From Dehalococcoidia bacterium (GTDB taxonomy: Bacteria > Chloroflexota > Dehalococcoidia > SZUA-161), in the NCBI GenBank assembly GCA_030619685.1, contig JAUXAX010000005.1, forward strand, positions 1 to 64,000: 64,000 nucleotides of DNA, written 5' to 3'. A model generated the notes under the pieces. The model saw only the letters and a program-made list of their open reading frames with translations, searched no databases and was not told where the DNA came from. The translations under genes and the position numbers were made by a program. Positions within the stretch are counted from its first letter, which is position 1. Each line of letters opens with the position of its first letter. Positions 58,843 to 63,958 of the stretch are shown one piece after another.

Positions 58843-58918
58843 GGGGATATAGCTCAACTGGGAGAGCGCTGCGTTCGCATCGCAGAGGTCGGGGGTTCGA
58901 ATCCCCCTATCTCCACCA
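58843..58918 (+). tRNA. tRNA-Ala (anticodon CGC)
   Basis: 76 bases including encoded CCA. The acceptor pairs GGGGATA with TATCTCC (one G-U). The anticodon arm is CTGCG TTCGCAT CGCAG, giving CGC. The T arm is GGGGG TTCGAAT CCCCC. Confidence 0.95.
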
Positions 58919-58959: not shown

Positions 58960-59035
58960 GCCCCTGTAGCTCAGAGGATAGAGCAGCGGTTTCCTAAACC
59001 GCGTGTCGGGTGTTCGAGTCACCCCAGGGGTACCA
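58960..59035 (+). tRNA. tRNA-Arg (anticodon CCT)
   Basis: 76 bases including encoded CCA. The acceptor pairs GCCCCTG with CAGGGGT. The anticodon arm is GCGGT TTCCTAA ACCGC, giving CCT. The T arm is GGGTG TTCGAGT CACCC. Mobile-element fragments lie next to its 3' end. Confidence 0.95.
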
Positions 59036-59372: not shown

Positions 59373-59602
59373 AACCCTCTGACGTCCGGAAAACCAGAAA
59401 CGTGCCTCTCAGCATTGGCGAGTAGCTAACATTTAGCTAACGAACTCACCGGCACGGGGTGTCACTGAACGGGAGCGATTTGTCCCTGATGCCCTGCCGA
59501 TTTCACTTGATAGCCACTATCCCATCACCCACATGGGCTAACTTGGACAGTAGCTAATAGTACAGAAGTACCAGATCGAGAGGAAACGATAACTTAAGTT
59601 GA
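59373..59602. other. Non-coding stretch with repeated TAGCTAA
   Basis: No gene is seen. TAGCTAAC occurs at 59423-59430 and 59434-59441, and TAGCTAAT at 59551-59558. The number is too small to call iterons. Confidence 0.4.
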
Positions 59603-59631
59603 TTGACAATTGCTGCCTTTTTCGCTATCAT
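59603..59631 (+). promoter_or_regulatory. Strong promoter upstream of the small hypothetical gene
   Basis: A perfect TTGACA and TATCAT are spaced by 17 bases. The transcript would begin near 59638, at the edge of the palindrome. Confidence 0.75.
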
Positions 59632-59640
59632 TGTGGTTAG

Positions 59641-59669
59641 GAACTAGTCCCGGTCACCTGGACTAGTTC
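59641..59669 (+). promoter_or_regulatory. 10-bp palindrome at the transcription start (operator or leader hairpin)
   Basis: GAACTAGTCC and GGACTAGTTC are perfect inverted repeats around CGGTCACCT, followed by TCTGTTCTTT. It could bind a repressor dimer or form a leader terminator. Confidence 0.6.
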
Positions 59670-59688
59670 TCTGTTCTTTACGAGGTGA

Positions 59689-60003
59689 GTGGCCAAGGGC
59701 AGCGGGCGCTGGCAGGACAGTGGGACAGGGCCGTGGGATGCACGATGCGGTGTCAACCCCACTACTTTACGCGCGAAGGTCCTGCGGAAGCCCGGATATT
59801 GGATCTCGAAGCCGTCTTTCGGGGTAGTTGTCATGAACGGGCTACTACTGGAAAAACTGATAGAAGAGAAGCAGCGTCTCAGAACGGAACTGGTGCAAGC
59901 TCAATCCATGCTGCACTTGGTCGATGACCGCATATTAGAAGAGCTGCTAATGGAAGTCCAGAGCAGTGATGAGCCTGTCGTAAATAAGGTAGACCAGGGC
60001 TAG
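59689..60003 (+). CDS. Small hypothetical protein with helical C-terminus
   Basis: 104 residues from GTG 59689, near GAGGTGA; ATG 59833 (MNGLLLEKLIEEKQRLRTEL) is an alternative giving 56 residues. The first half is rich in Gly, Trp and Arg and is not recognised. The second half is a likely coiled coil (LLLEKLIEEKQRLRTELVQA and LVDDRILEELLMEVQSSDEP). It has its own strong promoter and palindrome and converges with the tubulin-like gene (16 bases apart). The function is unknown. Confidence 0.5.
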   Translation: MAKGSGRWQDSGTGPWDARCGVNPTTLRAKVLRKPGYWISKPSFGVVVMNGLLLEKLIEEKQRLRTELVQAQSMLHLVDDRILEELLMEVQSSDEPVVNKVDQG

Positions 60004-60019
60004 AATAACTTTCCCGTGG

Positions 60020-61090
60020 TTACGGTGTTGCTTCCTCGCTCCTTAGCCGTACCCCTAGCCTGGTGCTCTCAGAGTACCCGGAAAGCAGCACCACAGCAGC
60101 TACGGAATCCCACCCTCGAATCGGACAGTCCCCACCTCTGACTTCACTAGTTGCTATCGAATCCTCCAGCCAGCTCTTGGCATGGGAGAAGCCCTCCATA
60201 TTCAGCTCGTCTGGAGGTCCAGCAATAATCATTAGCGCCTTTTTAGCCTGCTTTATGTCGCACTCGCCGGTTAACCTTAGAGTAGCAGCGTTCCTTACGG
60301 CTGTGTAGCACCTCTGGGCTGGACTTAGCTGGTCCATCGAGTTCTTCTTCCTAAAGAAAAGGAACCTGTCACGAGCACTCTTGGCCTTCATTTCTGAATA
60401 TCCGATGTAGCTGAACCCGTGCCAGGAGTTTATGATGTCAGAGGCATCAATCACCTTTATGCCGACCCTGTCATTCGCTGTCTCTCCGGCACCCAGCATC
60501 AAGGGGAATGGCTTCACCAACTCGTAGTTCATTTTGCTGTAGCTTGTCTGCAGCGCGAGCCCCTCCTTTTTCCAGACATCGTTGTCAAACAAAAGAATGC
60601 CATTGACTATCCCATCAACCTCTTGTAAGCACTCGATGGCATTCGAGGCCATCAGCTTCCCCTCGTCCTCAGACGGAAGAATGCCAATCAAGTAGATCGG
60701 CTCTTCGTAGACCTCTCTCAGCCTAGTAATGATAACTGGCGCCCCACCAGATCCGGTACCTCCTCCGAGACCGGCAACGACTATAAAGGCATCTACATGG
60801 TGGACACCTTTCTCCGTAACCGCATGCAGAATCGAATGGAGCCCCTGCTTGGCGGTTTTCGCTCCCACTTTTCGATTGAGCCCCACTCCGTGACCCTTCA
60901 CCACCGTTTGGCCAACAAGAATTCTGTCCTTCTTCTCTATTGTTTGCAGTCCTAGCAGGTCGGCTTGCGCCGAGTTAACAGCTAGGGCGAAAGGAACTAT
61001 ACCCTGATGCCGGCCCCACCTGCTGTGATACGTCAACAGGTCAGCAATCCGCCCCCCAGCTTGACCGATACCGATAACTCCAATCCTCAT
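60020..61090 (-). CDS. Tubulin-superfamily GTPase of CetZ-like type
   Basis: 356 residues from ATG 61090, chosen because GGAGG lies seven bases upstream. The N-terminus IGVIGIGQAGGRIADLL is the first nucleotide-binding loop. VNSAQADLLGL, LVGQTVVKGHGVG and the tubulin signature GGGTGSG (109-115, in VAGLGGGTGSGGAPVI) follow. Then come ILPSEDEGKLMASNA, LLFDNDVW and a T7-region MNYELV with an acidic residue. These stretches resemble archaeal CetZ more than FtsZ (which reads NTDAQ-L, GA-PEVG, INVDFADV). Such GTPases polymerise into filaments that shape cells. No partner gene is adjacent; it lies among element remnants. Confidence 0.85.
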   Translation of the reverse strand: MRIGVIGIGQAGGRIADLLTYHSRWGRHQGIVPFALAVNSAQADLLGLQTIEKKDRILVGQTVVKGHGVGLNRKVGAKTAKQGLHSILHAVTEKGVHHVDAFIVVAGLGGGTGSGGAPVIITRLREVYEEPIYLIGILPSEDEGKLMASNAIECLQEVDGIVNGILLFDNDVWKKEGLALQTSYSKMNYELVKPFPLMLGAGETANDRVGIKVIDASDIINSWHGFSYIGYSEMKAKSARDRFLFFRKKNSMDQLSPAQRCYTAVRNAATLRLTGECDIKQAKKALMIIAGPPDELNMEGFSHAKSWLEDSIATSEVRGGDCPIRGWDSVAAVVLLSGYSESTRLGVRLRSEEATP

Positions 61091-61275
61091 CTTTGACCTC
61101 CACATCCATGATTTTGTGTCTCTGAGTTTCTCGCGTTCTCATCAAGAGAAGTTGCTATACCGTAGAGTAACTTGTTTAAAAGACGGAAAGAATCCCGCTT
61201 TCGTACTAGTCTATCTAGTGCTTTCGTCATGCTATGGTTCGCTGTAGAAGGGGTGCGGTTTTGCCCGTTGAATGA

Positions 61276-61491
61276 TGTGAGCGGAGCACACTAACCGGTC
61301 TTTGCAACGAAGCCATGATTCTCCTCTTGTTAGACACAGGGCTTCGCTGTGCAGGGCTGGTAGGTCTCGAGATGAACGACCGATTTCTCAGAGACCATCG
61401 CCTAAAGGTGATGGGTAGAGGCCAGAAGGAAAGGATAGTGTCATTCGGTGATCGAACTGCGAGAGCGCTGCTTCGGTCATCTGCGCTCTAG
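61276..61491 (+). pseudogene. Fragment of a tyrosine recombinase/phage integrase
   Basis: The frame reads STLTGLCNEAMILLLLDTGL, RCAGLVGLEMNDRFLRDHRL and KVMGRGQKERIVSFGDRTAR, ending in TAG at 61489. This matches the box I region of XerC/D-like integrases (LL-DTGLR-SEL--L---D, V-GKG-KER-VP) with the catalytic Arg of TGLR. The usual Glu after it is Gly and the HxxR and Tyr motifs are absent. The fragment overlaps the stop of the TPP enzyme gene by three bases. Confidence 0.8.
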
Positions 61492-63215
61492 GCGACATAT
61501 AGTTCCTTGTACAGCTCGGTCAACTTTCTCTCCTGGTCCATGAGGTAGTAATTCACAAAGGTGAATATAGAGTGATCGATCCTGACATCCAGCACAGCGG
61601 GCAACCCCGAGTCGAAGGCTCTTTCCAATGCTGGCCGGATTTCTTCGGGGTCGGTCACCAGCTCTCCGTAAGCACCCAGACTCTCCGCATACTTGTCATA
61701 TCTCGCGTTTTCATTCAATTTGCCGCAAACATCATGGTAGTTGCCGAGCTCCTGGCAGTGTCTGACTGCACCCCACTGGCAGTCATTACCTACCACAACC
61801 ACGATTTGCTTGTTGTTTCGCACAGCCGTATCGATTTCGCTCGCATTGAACAGGAATGATCCGTCTCCCTCGATAACGAGGACTTTCGCATCCGGCTTTG
61901 CTGTCTTAACACCAATTCCGAAGGGAATGCCTCCTCCTAAATGCCCTAGCGGGCCGCCCAAAGCCGACACGAAACTGCCTGGGAAGCTGGCACAGAATTG
62001 AGGGACGATGTGAGACTGTATTTCCCCTCCATCCGCTACGAGGTATGCGTCCTTACCCAAAAACTCGCAAATCTCCTTCCCCAGTCTTCTAGGATCAATG
62101 GGTTTACTCGAACTTGAGGCTCCCGAGCGGAAAATATCCCAGACGGATTCTGCGGTATCCCTCACCCTCCTGACCCACTCTGTCTCCTCGCGTTTCCTCC
62201 CAGAACTCCCGAGAGCTTCATTCGCTGCCTCGATTAGCTGTGTAAGGACAGCCTTGGCATCTCCCCATATCCCGATATCGATGGGTCTATTTCTACCGAT
62301 CTCGAATGGTTCGATATCCACAGAAATCACTTTTACGTCGGGTGCAAACAAAGTGCCGCTGCCATAGCTGAGTATTTCCCCAAATCTCACGCCGATCGCA
62401 AGAAGTACGTCGGCTTCTGATATGGCCCCAAAGTCGTAAGCAACAATGCCACCGCAAAGAGGATGGTCGTCTGGCATTGCCCCTTTTCCCTCAAAGGCGT
62501 AACACACCGGTATCTTGAGAAGCTCAGCAAACTGTATTAGTTCTTGCGAAGCACCCGACCAAAGGACTCCGCTCCCAATTAGTATTGCCGGCCTCTCAGC
62601 CTCCAATAGCCATTTCAGAGCTTTTCTCACCAGCGCCGGCTCCCCGTAAGGGCGCGCGCTGGTCCTATACTTCTCCGGAGGCATAATCTCGGCTCGCTCC
62701 TCTTTTGCCTTCAACAAAATCGTGTCATCGGGGAAATCCAGTAGCACAGGGCCTTTGCGACCCGTATTGGCATACCTAAACGCTGTAGCTACATATTCTG
62801 GTATGCGATGTGTCGCCGTACAGTAGCCTCTCCACTTCGTAATACTCCTGAACATGTCTCCAGAGTCGAATTCTTGAACAGATCCCTTTCCCTCAAAATA
62901 GTGTGGTGTATGAGCGCAAATACCGACAACCGGTGCGCAAGTGTACCAGGCAGCGGCCATGCCTGACGCCATGTTGATCACACCTGGGCCTGATGTAACC
63001 ATGGCCACTCCAGGGCCCTGAGTGGCCATGGCGTAGCCGGTTGCGGCGTTTGCCACTGCTTGTTCATGTCTCATATCTATGAGCTCAATACCTTCGTCTA
63101 CGCACGTATTGTATATTGATATCAGGCTTGGGCCACCACACAGGGTAAAGACCGCTTTTACACCCTCATTCTTTAATGACCTGCCGACAAGTGCGCTCCC
63201 AGCTACTTCTGTCAT
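61488..63215 (-). CDS. Acetolactate-synthase-like thiamine pyrophosphate enzyme
   Basis: 575 residues from ATG 63215, chosen because GGAGG sits five bases upstream. The three TPP-enzyme domains are visible. The N-terminal one has the catalytic Glu in DMRHEQAVANAATGYAMA, and the middle domain has ERPAILIGSG and ISVDIEPFEIGRNRPID. The C-terminal TPP site is IEGDGSFLFNASEIDTAVRN then VVGND. It resembles large-subunit acetolactate synthases, oxalyl-CoA decarboxylases and sulfopyruvate-type enzymes. No small regulatory subunit follows, so branched-chain synthesis is not assured. Confidence 0.85.
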   Translation of the reverse strand: MTEVAGSALVGRSLKNEGVKAVFTLCGGPSLISIYNTCVDEGIELIDMRHEQAVANAATGYAMATQGPGVAMVTSGPGVINMASGMAAAWYTCAPVVGICAHTPHYFEGKGSVQEFDSGDMFRSITKWRGYCTATHRIPEYVATAFRYANTGRKGPVLLDFPDDTILLKAKEERAEIMPPEKYRTSARPYGEPALVRKALKWLLEAERPAILIGSGVLWSGASQELIQFAELLKIPVCYAFEGKGAMPDDHPLCGGIVAYDFGAISEADVLLAIGVRFGEILSYGSGTLFAPDVKVISVDIEPFEIGRNRPIDIGIWGDAKAVLTQLIEAANEALGSSGRKREETEWVRRVRDTAESVWDIFRSGASSSSKPIDPRRLGKEICEFLGKDAYLVADGGEIQSHIVPQFCASFPGSFVSALGGPLGHLGGGIPFGIGVKTAKPDAKVLVIEGDGSFLFNASEIDTAVRNNKQIVVVVGNDCQWGAVRHCQELGNYHDVCGKLNENARYDKYAESLGAYGELVTDPEEIRPALERAFDSGLPAVLDVRIDHSIFTFVNYYLMDQERKLTELYKELYVA

Positions 63216-63406
63216 TTCGACCTCCAAGAGTTGGTTTGCTTCAGCCCACCCAGGGTAGACTATAACGTCTCCGCATGTCAAATAGGGAGTCTTTTCCGAG
63301 CACAGCATAATCCAAAGCACATACCTGACAAAACTAGGTCAATATTCGTTATACATATAGAAAACACACACGAACCCTTGGTTCTCAGACATTAGGGAGG
63401 GCAACG

Positions 63407-63958
63407 ATGATGTTCCATCACGAACGCGGTCAGATGCAGCTGTCGGTGGTGGCTATGGCAAACAACGGGATAATGCCTGAACCTGAGGCCTCGGCGGAGC
63501 TGGTCGAAACGCTCAGAGAAGCAGACGAAGCTCTCCAGTTTTCACACAAGAGGACCGTCTCCAAACTCTGGGATTGCTACGCCGAGATGCTCAGAGAAGT
63601 AGACGAAGCTCTCCAGATTGCATACGAGAGGACTGTCTCCGAACTCCGGAATTGCTACGTCGAGATGCTCAGAGAAGTAAACGAAGCTCTCCGTATTCTA
63701 TACGAAATGCCCATGTCCGGACTCTCGACTTACTACGCACCAATTCCCAGAGAGTTGAACGAAGGACCTCTTAGTCAATGTGAAATCGCCCAGTTGGAAC
63801 TCTGGAGTCCCTCAATCGAAACGCTCAGCAAGCCAAACGAAGCTCTCGGGAGGGCAGAACCTTTTTCTGAGCTGGTGGCAGCAGTGGAAAGCAACGACCT
63901 ACTCAAAGAATACGGGAGCCCAATCTACGGACGGGCTGTTGGTTTCTCTCTAAACTGA
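63407..63958 (+). CDS. Protein of five 26-residue tandem repeats (unknown)
   Basis: 183 residues. After a 30-residue lead, five 26-residue units occur: ETLREADEALQFSHKRTVSK..., EMLREVDEALQIAYERTVSE..., EMLREVNEALRILYEMPMSG..., PIPRELNEGPLSQCEIAQLE... and ETLSKPNEALGRAEPFSELV.... The first three are near identical and predicted helical; the last two have decayed. I recognise no known family. The ATG follows GGGAGGGC. It is divergent from the TPP enzyme gene. Confidence 0.65.
   Translation: MMFHHERGQMQLSVVAMANNGIMPEPEASAELVETLREADEALQFSHKRTVSKLWDCYAEMLREVDEALQIAYERTVSELRNCYVEMLREVNEALRILYEMPMSGLSTYYAPIPRELNEGPLSQCEIAQLELWSPSIETLSKPNEALGRAEPFSELVAAVESNDLLKEYGSPIYGRAVGFSLN
63511..63900 (+). repeat. 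78-bp tandem repeat, five units
   Basis: GCTCAGAGAAG-type starts fall at 63511, 63589, 63667, 63745 and 63823, exactly 78 bases apart. Identity is high in the first three units and falls in the last two. The period is a multiple of three, keeping the frame. Confidence 0.85.

Follow-up and report, generated by a model that had tools for sequence, protein, structure and literature searches.

The gene on the minus strand near the end of the window, the 64-kb stretch of DNA analysed here, encodes a true CetZ, a GTPase of the tubulin superfamily, in a bacterium of the class Dehalococcoidia. CetZ is called "archaea-specific" (PMC11621097, 2024) and "specific to the archaea" (PMC9856176) in the accessible text of these two papers. 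The host of the present gene is not an archaeon, which is a statement on the range of the family and not on a property of the protein.

The similarity of the window protein to CetZ is far beyond chance. Its CetZ_C domain (PF21011) scores 139.1 bits against a cut-off of 21.6 over residues 184–350 of the 361-aa frame and lies beside a tubulin GTPase domain. The Pfam scan returned only CetZ_C, Tubulin and a sub-threshold Tubulin_2 match, with neither FtsZ_C nor the tubulin-type C-terminal domain of BtubA/B and tubulin among them, and the NCBIfam FtsZ model gives 82.7 against a cut-off of 295.2. At 24 diagnostic columns, picked from 18 rows each of archaeal CetZ and Dehalococcoidia FtsZ with the window protein left out, the residue is CetZ-type in 18, FtsZ-type in none and neither in six. 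When the predicted fold was compared with known structures (VIA-align, best 50 matches listed), CetZ structures took ranks 1 to 3 (Z 44.7, 43.1 and 37.0), with FtsZ at 34.9 or below. TubZ (4ei7) is found among the Foldseek matches (E 7e-21); its absence from the best 50 VIA-align matches listed excludes nothing. In PHROGs, the GTPase domain matches phrog_17961 (unknown function, 4.6e-8) and PhuZ (2.2e-5). Identity, domain and fold thus carry the CetZ assignment, and not the tree. An earlier note, made on the letters of the window, had read the translation as CetZ and not as FtsZ, TubZ or BtubA/B, and had proposed a structure prediction as a check of the tubulin fold and the T7 loop; domain, fold ranking, diagnostic columns, the aligned T7 acids and the host data all agree with it. 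The motifs that it quoted, GGGTGSG included, are present in the translation; it gave no strand.

The protein shares the superfamily fold and the GTPase signature with the FtsZ of the host lineage, and relatives of the host encode a separate FtsZ besides CetZ. With TubZ and PhuZ it shares the superfamily, but it has CetZ_C, and no phage or bacterial-plasmid relative was found: none of the phage records matches it, and the 29 plasmid records that do are all haloarchaeal. CetZ1 of Haloferax volcanii (PDB 4b46), on the other hand, is of the same family and differs in its archaeal host.

The ORF listing of the window gives the open frame as 60020–61105 on the minus strand (361 codons), while the plus strand over the same stretch contains many stops in that frame. 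The first in-frame ATG, at 61105, would add five residues to the protein. We prefer the ATG at 61090 as the likely start, because the N-terminus that it yields (MRIGVIG) aligns with those of relatives and a GGAGGT stands in front of it; a similar GGAGGT precedes cetZ in three related loci (L001, L002 and L003). In alignment A1, GGGTGSG is invariant or nearly so, D215 is invariant and D218 nearly invariant; the two acids align with residues of Haloferax CetZ1 which we take to be catalytic. The features of the locus are collected in the table.

Features of the cetZ locus (positions in the window)
Feature	Position	Strand	Remarks
cetZ	60020..61090	-	356 codons + stop; most likely start ATG at 61090
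Ribosome-binding site GGAGGT	61096..61101	-	5 nt before the cetZ ATG
T4 loop, tubulin signature GGGTGSG	60746..60766	-	residues 109-115; from translation and sequence
T7 loop acids D215, D218	60437..60448	-	from alignment with Haloferax CetZ1 D215, E218
Convergent small open frame downstream of cetZ	59833..60003	+	56 codons + stop
tRNA-Arg(cct)	58960..59035	+	
tRNA-Ala(cgc)	58843..58918	+	
Thiamine-pyrophosphate enzyme, upstream gene	61488..63320	-	about 0.4 kb from cetZ

All 24 frames of at least 60 aa between 57 and 64 kb were searched against Pfam and ten frames against PHROGs; the part from 1 to 57 kb was read as an ORF list. The families above the cut-off in 57–64 kb are PurF-type domains, a metallophosphoesterase, a zincin-like peptidase, thiamine-pyrophosphate enzyme domains and the two CetZ domains, and PHROGs gave nothing beyond the two GTPase-domain matches of CetZ itself. 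The integrase and recombinase remnants among which the gene had been placed were therefore not found in these 24 frames. The convergent frame downstream of cetZ has no Pfam or PHROGs match, and the nearest relative (genome G245, locus L004) has the same DNA behind its own cetZ. The thiamine-pyrophosphate enzyme gene, whose flanks in five relatives were included in the DNA comparison with the window, is not thought to be part of the CetZ system. Further upstream, at 63407–63958, a 183-aa frame with near-repeats looks coiled-coil-like and has no Pfam family above the cut-off. With a GC content of 0.53, cetZ is no different from the window as a whole (0.538 ± 0.021 in 1068-bp tiles), which gives no sign of recent import.

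For the UvrB encoded in the window, the identities are 95% with a 540-aa fragment from G245, a genome of the class Dehalococcoidia, 89% with G002 and 84% with G209; G001 has a full copy at 77% and, in addition, a partial match at 87%. The window CetZ is 81–85% identical to the CetZ of five loci (L001–L005), four of them from Dehalococcoidia MAG records and one from a Chloroflexota MAG record. L001 is part of G001 and L003 of G002, and L002, L004 and L005 probably belong to G209, G245 and G065, respectively. One of them (L001) is on a 2.1-Mb single-contig Dehalococcoidia chromosome. When 393 Dehalococcoidia genomes were searched with a 21-sequence profile, 105 had matches at E <= 1e-30. Eleven of these carry the subfamily of the window CetZ, nine at E <= 1e-127 (in G049 cut at a contig edge) and two as fragments at contig edges (G245 and G065). 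In the remaining 94, the best E values range from 1e-43 to 2e-82, with one to five copies per genome, and the copies placed in trees form a divergent group, with the exception of that of G144; G245 holds both kinds. In a Chloroflexota sample, CetZ_C occurs in 22 of 301 genomes, and all 22 also belong to the class set. The organism-named matches in two lists of the best 120 each are Dehalococcoidia or archaea, most matches having no name. The search in related Chloroflexota which the earlier note had proposed thus finds the same subfamily. The description as a single gene holds for the window and misleads for the lineage. The idea that many Chloroflexota carry the gene vertically as an FtsZ variant, which would have spoken against a CetZ, is right in part, in that the gene is indeed carried vertically by many of them, as a CetZ and not as an FtsZ variant.

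The divergent CetZ-like proteins are about 400 aa long and, like the window protein, exceed the CetZ_C cut-off, with 12–16 of the 24 diagnostic columns CetZ-type (8 rows); however, they branch apart from the window's subfamily. They are widespread in the class, e.g., in G015, G051 and G099 (L042, L043, L054, L070–L072), and occur also in genomes with a single contig spanning the whole 1.4–1.5 Mb. Sparse, paraphyletic CetZ-like groups of Chloroflexota-Dehalococcoidia that match the CetZ C-terminal model have already been reported in the accessible part of PMC9871819, and are probably these divergent proteins. Two other observations concern single genomes: the 353-aa CetZ of G144 (4.0 Mb; L023/L091) has a very long branch and groups with haloarchaeal CetZ in a quick tree, reflecting either transfer or misbinning, and G001 and G002 (L010–L013) have two more weak tubulin-domain matches each, in frames of 453–926 aa, besides FtsZ and CetZ.

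The relationships within the family were analysed with a careful tree of 64 rows chosen from the fetched sequences, TubZ rows being left out of all trees. In this tree the bacterial subfamily is a single clade (27 rows, 100/99). Its closest neighbours are Conexivisphaerales, Hecatellales and rows without a name, with which it makes up a 33-row group (95/96); a 17-row clade (100/100), in which the rows with a name are euryarchaeal, stands apart. Among the archaeal rows with a name, the closest are two Thermoproteota-type CetZ, P0087 of Hecatellales, which is 54% identical to the window protein, and P0111 of Conexivisphaerales; both have archaeal hosts. In AU tests, done on a 38-row set, a group of the window protein with three haloarchaeal CetZ was rejected (p 3e-67), which rules out a haloarchaeal donor; this and the nearest rows do not fit the picture of CetZ as mainly euryarchaeal that the earlier note had given. 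The window protein groups with archaeal CetZ (54 rows, 99/94), in line with the CetZ reading for which a phylogeny had been proposed as a check, but the AU test retains a clade of the window protein with FtsZ (p 0.21). This is probably an effect of the FtsZ branch, which is very long (3.9), so that the FtsZ root says little. The 64-row tree favours a bacterial clade nested inside archaeal CetZ by way of the 33-row group, and an archaeal CetZ clade that excludes the bacterial proteins was not rejected either (p 0.25). An archaeal donor is the simplest reading; since the AU tests leave alternatives, the direction from archaea to bacteria is a parsimony argument and not a proof. Likewise, a joint clade of the canonical and divergent Dehalococcoidia CetZ was not rejected (p 0.19), and two independent acquisitions can therefore not be claimed. 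Inside the bacterial clade there is also a CetZ group without host assignment (P0083, P0086, P0092, P0099, P0106, P0115 and kin), and no genome with a score pattern like that of this group stood out among the 393.

In relatives of the window, the subfamily is linked to a small two-helix protein, a linkage which is new. A small frame on the same strand directly follows cetZ in eight loci of three lineages and measures 68–82 residues overall, with lengths and gaps reckoned by the first start codon: it has 74–82 aa in L001, L002, L003 and L005, 76 aa in L087 and L088, where it overlaps the end of cetZ by 4 nt, and 68 aa in L085 and L086, where the overlap is 14 nt. The last two were found with a profile of the other six (E 1e-10 and 4e-11). 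The CetZ proteins of the three lineages are approximately 49–55% identical, and the deepest split in the bacterial clade separates some of these lineages from the others (P0076 being identical to the L088 CetZ). No partner follows cetZ in L089 (G012), L090 (G049) or L004 (G245). The partner has no Pfam family, its best matches (0.0087 and 0.062) being below the cut-off. Among the 38 relatives obtained in a protein search, five bear an organism name, in each case that of a Dehalococcoidia bacterium and never of an archaeon. The fetched flanks of haloarchaeal or divergent CetZ contain only unrelated hydrophobic frames and no partner, and no two-helix gene adjoins the divergent genes whose flanks were read. 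When an 8-row profile (A3) was run against the 393 class genomes, ten matches were obtained. Nine are below 1e-28 and all fall in genomes with the window's CetZ subfamily (9 of 11, with no match in G012 and G049); the tenth is marginal (G151, 3e-4, with a stop), and otherwise none of the 382 non-subfamily genomes matches (Fisher 1e-16, or 1e-15 with the marginal match counted). Eight of the nine strong matches are the profile's own sequences, so the weight of this test lies in the absence elsewhere and in the ninth, in G245. The predicted model of the partner has helices at 3–26 and 47–70, at low confidence (pLDDT 67.7, pTM 0.40). Basic residues at both ends in the alignment suggest a hairpin whose two termini are cytoplasmic. 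In carrying this gene, the bacterial relatives differ from CetZ1 of Haloferax volcanii.

Upstream of the partner-linked cetZ, L001 (8093-9864) and L003 (7027-9754) encode two candidate surface-layer components. One is a TIG-repeat protein, matched by Pfam in L003; the other has a collagen-like stretch that scores below the Pfam cut-off and what looks by eye like a membrane anchor at its C-terminus. A conserved operon with such S-layer-like genes, as in L001–L003, is not general: L087 has a transporter-like protein (by eye) in this place.

The window copy itself stands alone: a search of all 64 kb for a relative of the two-helix gene found none. The cetZ fragment of G245 in L004 shares the downstream flank of the window (59398–60701, in two pieces, 83% and 87% identical DNA). 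Another contig of the same genome (L226) has the C-terminal codons of a second CetZ, then the two-helix gene, then a hydrolase gene, the same that follows the partner in L001 and L003. G245 seems therefore to have two such cetZ genes, although mixed strains in this metagenome bin are possible; with one gene standing alone and the other linked to the partner, the window gene corresponds to the former. A 66-row tree places the window in an 18-row group (87/85), with L004 unplaced, and the partner-linked genes of G001, G002, G209 and G065 in a separate group of 27 rows (90/56); the supports for the two groups are moderate to weak.

The cellular setting was analysed in one fixed sample of 197 class genomes, scored for CetZ, transpeptidase, MreB and FtsZ. 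CetZ_C is present in 41, the murein transpeptidase PF00905 in 86, an MreB-grade match in 86 and FtsZ_C in 183; MreB-grade stands for E below 1e-100, a line set after the scores had been seen, and weaker matches to the MreB model occur in nearly all genomes. None of the 41 CetZ genomes has the transpeptidase (17.9 expected, Fisher p 1.3e-12) and none an MreB-grade match (Fisher p 1.3e-12), while FtsZ_C is found in 40 of them, the exception being G151. This combination is a new observation; the divergent proteins, too, are confined to transpeptidase-less genomes in this sample. Of the 11 genomes that carry the subfamily of the window, the sample includes nine. The genomes are incomplete drafts; an absence in any one of them says little. 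As 70 of the 111 transpeptidase-less genomes are without CetZ, the protein is not required in such cells. In the accessible part of PMC10284905, the loss of core peptidoglycan genes is placed at a single node. In an RpoB tree of 57 of the 60 searched genomes, built by a quick method from hand-picked rows of which five have the transpeptidase, CetZ occurs only inside a 38-row transpeptidase-less group (support 85), and the window's subfamily needs at least four changes. With wall loss as one old event, the correlation of CetZ with it becomes a clade-level match and is weakened as independent evidence. The match is real as a pattern and reflects one or few independent events. Overall, the host group of the window CetZ appears to have lost its peptidoglycan wall, and we infer that the window's own cell is wall-less as well.

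We propose, with a probability of about 55%, that the window CetZ is a filament-forming GTPase which acts under the membrane to shape wall-less cells and which in relatives is tethered by the two-helix partner. Given its GTP pocket, T7 acids and fold, the protein should bind GTP and form filaments. GTP-driven filaments would line the cytoplasmic membrane from the inside and would shape or stiffen cells bounded only by a membrane and a surface layer, much as CetZ1 does in haloarchaea. In the bacterial locus that looks ancestral, the downstream two-helix protein would probably tie the filament to the membrane; the window copy, as a stand-alone paralogue, might use a partner in trans if the genome has one, or do without. 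CetZ1 has a part in rod shape and motility in Haloferax, according to the accessible text of PMC11621097, and by analogy the bacterial CetZ may have a similar role. A wider history is possible, and we advance it tentatively: wall- and MreB-less Dehalococcoidia may have taken up an archaeal CetZ and joined it to a new two-helix membrane anchor, the resulting tubulin-based membrane cytoskeleton taking the place of wall and MreB, with a later duplication giving stand-alone paralogues, the window's included.

The filaments might instead place or build surface machines such as archaella or type IV pili and have no part in cell shape, which we regard as unlikely. The accessible parts of three papers speak for it: Dehalococcoidia and Anaerolineae acquired archaellum gene clusters by transfer (PMC12488501), CetZ1 has been linked to the positioning of archaella (PMC11621097), and haloarchaeal cetZ2 adjoins pilus genes (PMC9856176). 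Yet the 24 frames around the window cetZ contain no family of pili or archaella, a weak argument, since the neighbours in relatives were covered as selected proteins read by eye, with four scanned. Moreover, archaella are reported also from Anaerolineae in the same part of PMC12488501, but the CetZ_C genomes of the Chloroflexota sample all belong to the class set. An accessory role in division, with CetZ acting beside FtsZ at the septum of peptidoglycan-less cells, would agree with the side-by-side occurrence of the two proteins in the 197-genome sample. FtsZ has membrane tethers, which the partner beside cetZ resembles in kind. We consider this role quite improbable, as other means of division must suffice in the transpeptidase-less genomes without CetZ, and no division family lies in the 24 frames around the gene.

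It is very improbable that cetZ is a mobile gene of recent arrival, which might serve to segregate plasmids or phages, as the earlier note had suggested. The patchy subfamily, with its changes on the RpoB tree, and the two tRNA genes about 1 kb from cetZ would fit it, tRNA genes being a usual neighbourhood of integration. Against it stand the lack of an integrase or any other mobile gene in 57–64 kb, the phage and plasmid records described above, the ordinary GC, the bacterial clade of its own, the downstream flank shared with the nearest relative and, for the transfer of a lone gene, the spread over 11 genomes and the single-contig chromosome. As for archaeal contamination, the named genome records are metagenome-assembled, but the UvrB match, that same chromosome and the distribution in the class refute it for practical purposes.

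In the literature covered, which took in few subscription journals and preprints, no experiment on a bacterial CetZ was found. The accessible CetZ literature likewise yielded no mention of the two-helix partner, which has no name to search by, or of a link between CetZ and peptidoglycan loss; the accessible main text of PMC12488501 has no word beginning with tubulin or cytoskelet, and that of PMC7203096 no mention of CetZ.

The restriction of CetZ to genomes without transpeptidase and MreB-grade matches in our sample makes these bacteria a natural test of how a bacterial cell without a wall keeps its shape. To our knowledge, how archaeal CetZ reaches the membrane is an open question, and the two-helix partner would offer a candidate for what ties a CetZ to it. 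Finally, a bacterial CetZ would add a cytoskeletal gene to the archaeal parts found in Chloroflexota, such as the archaellum described in the accessible text of PMC12488501.
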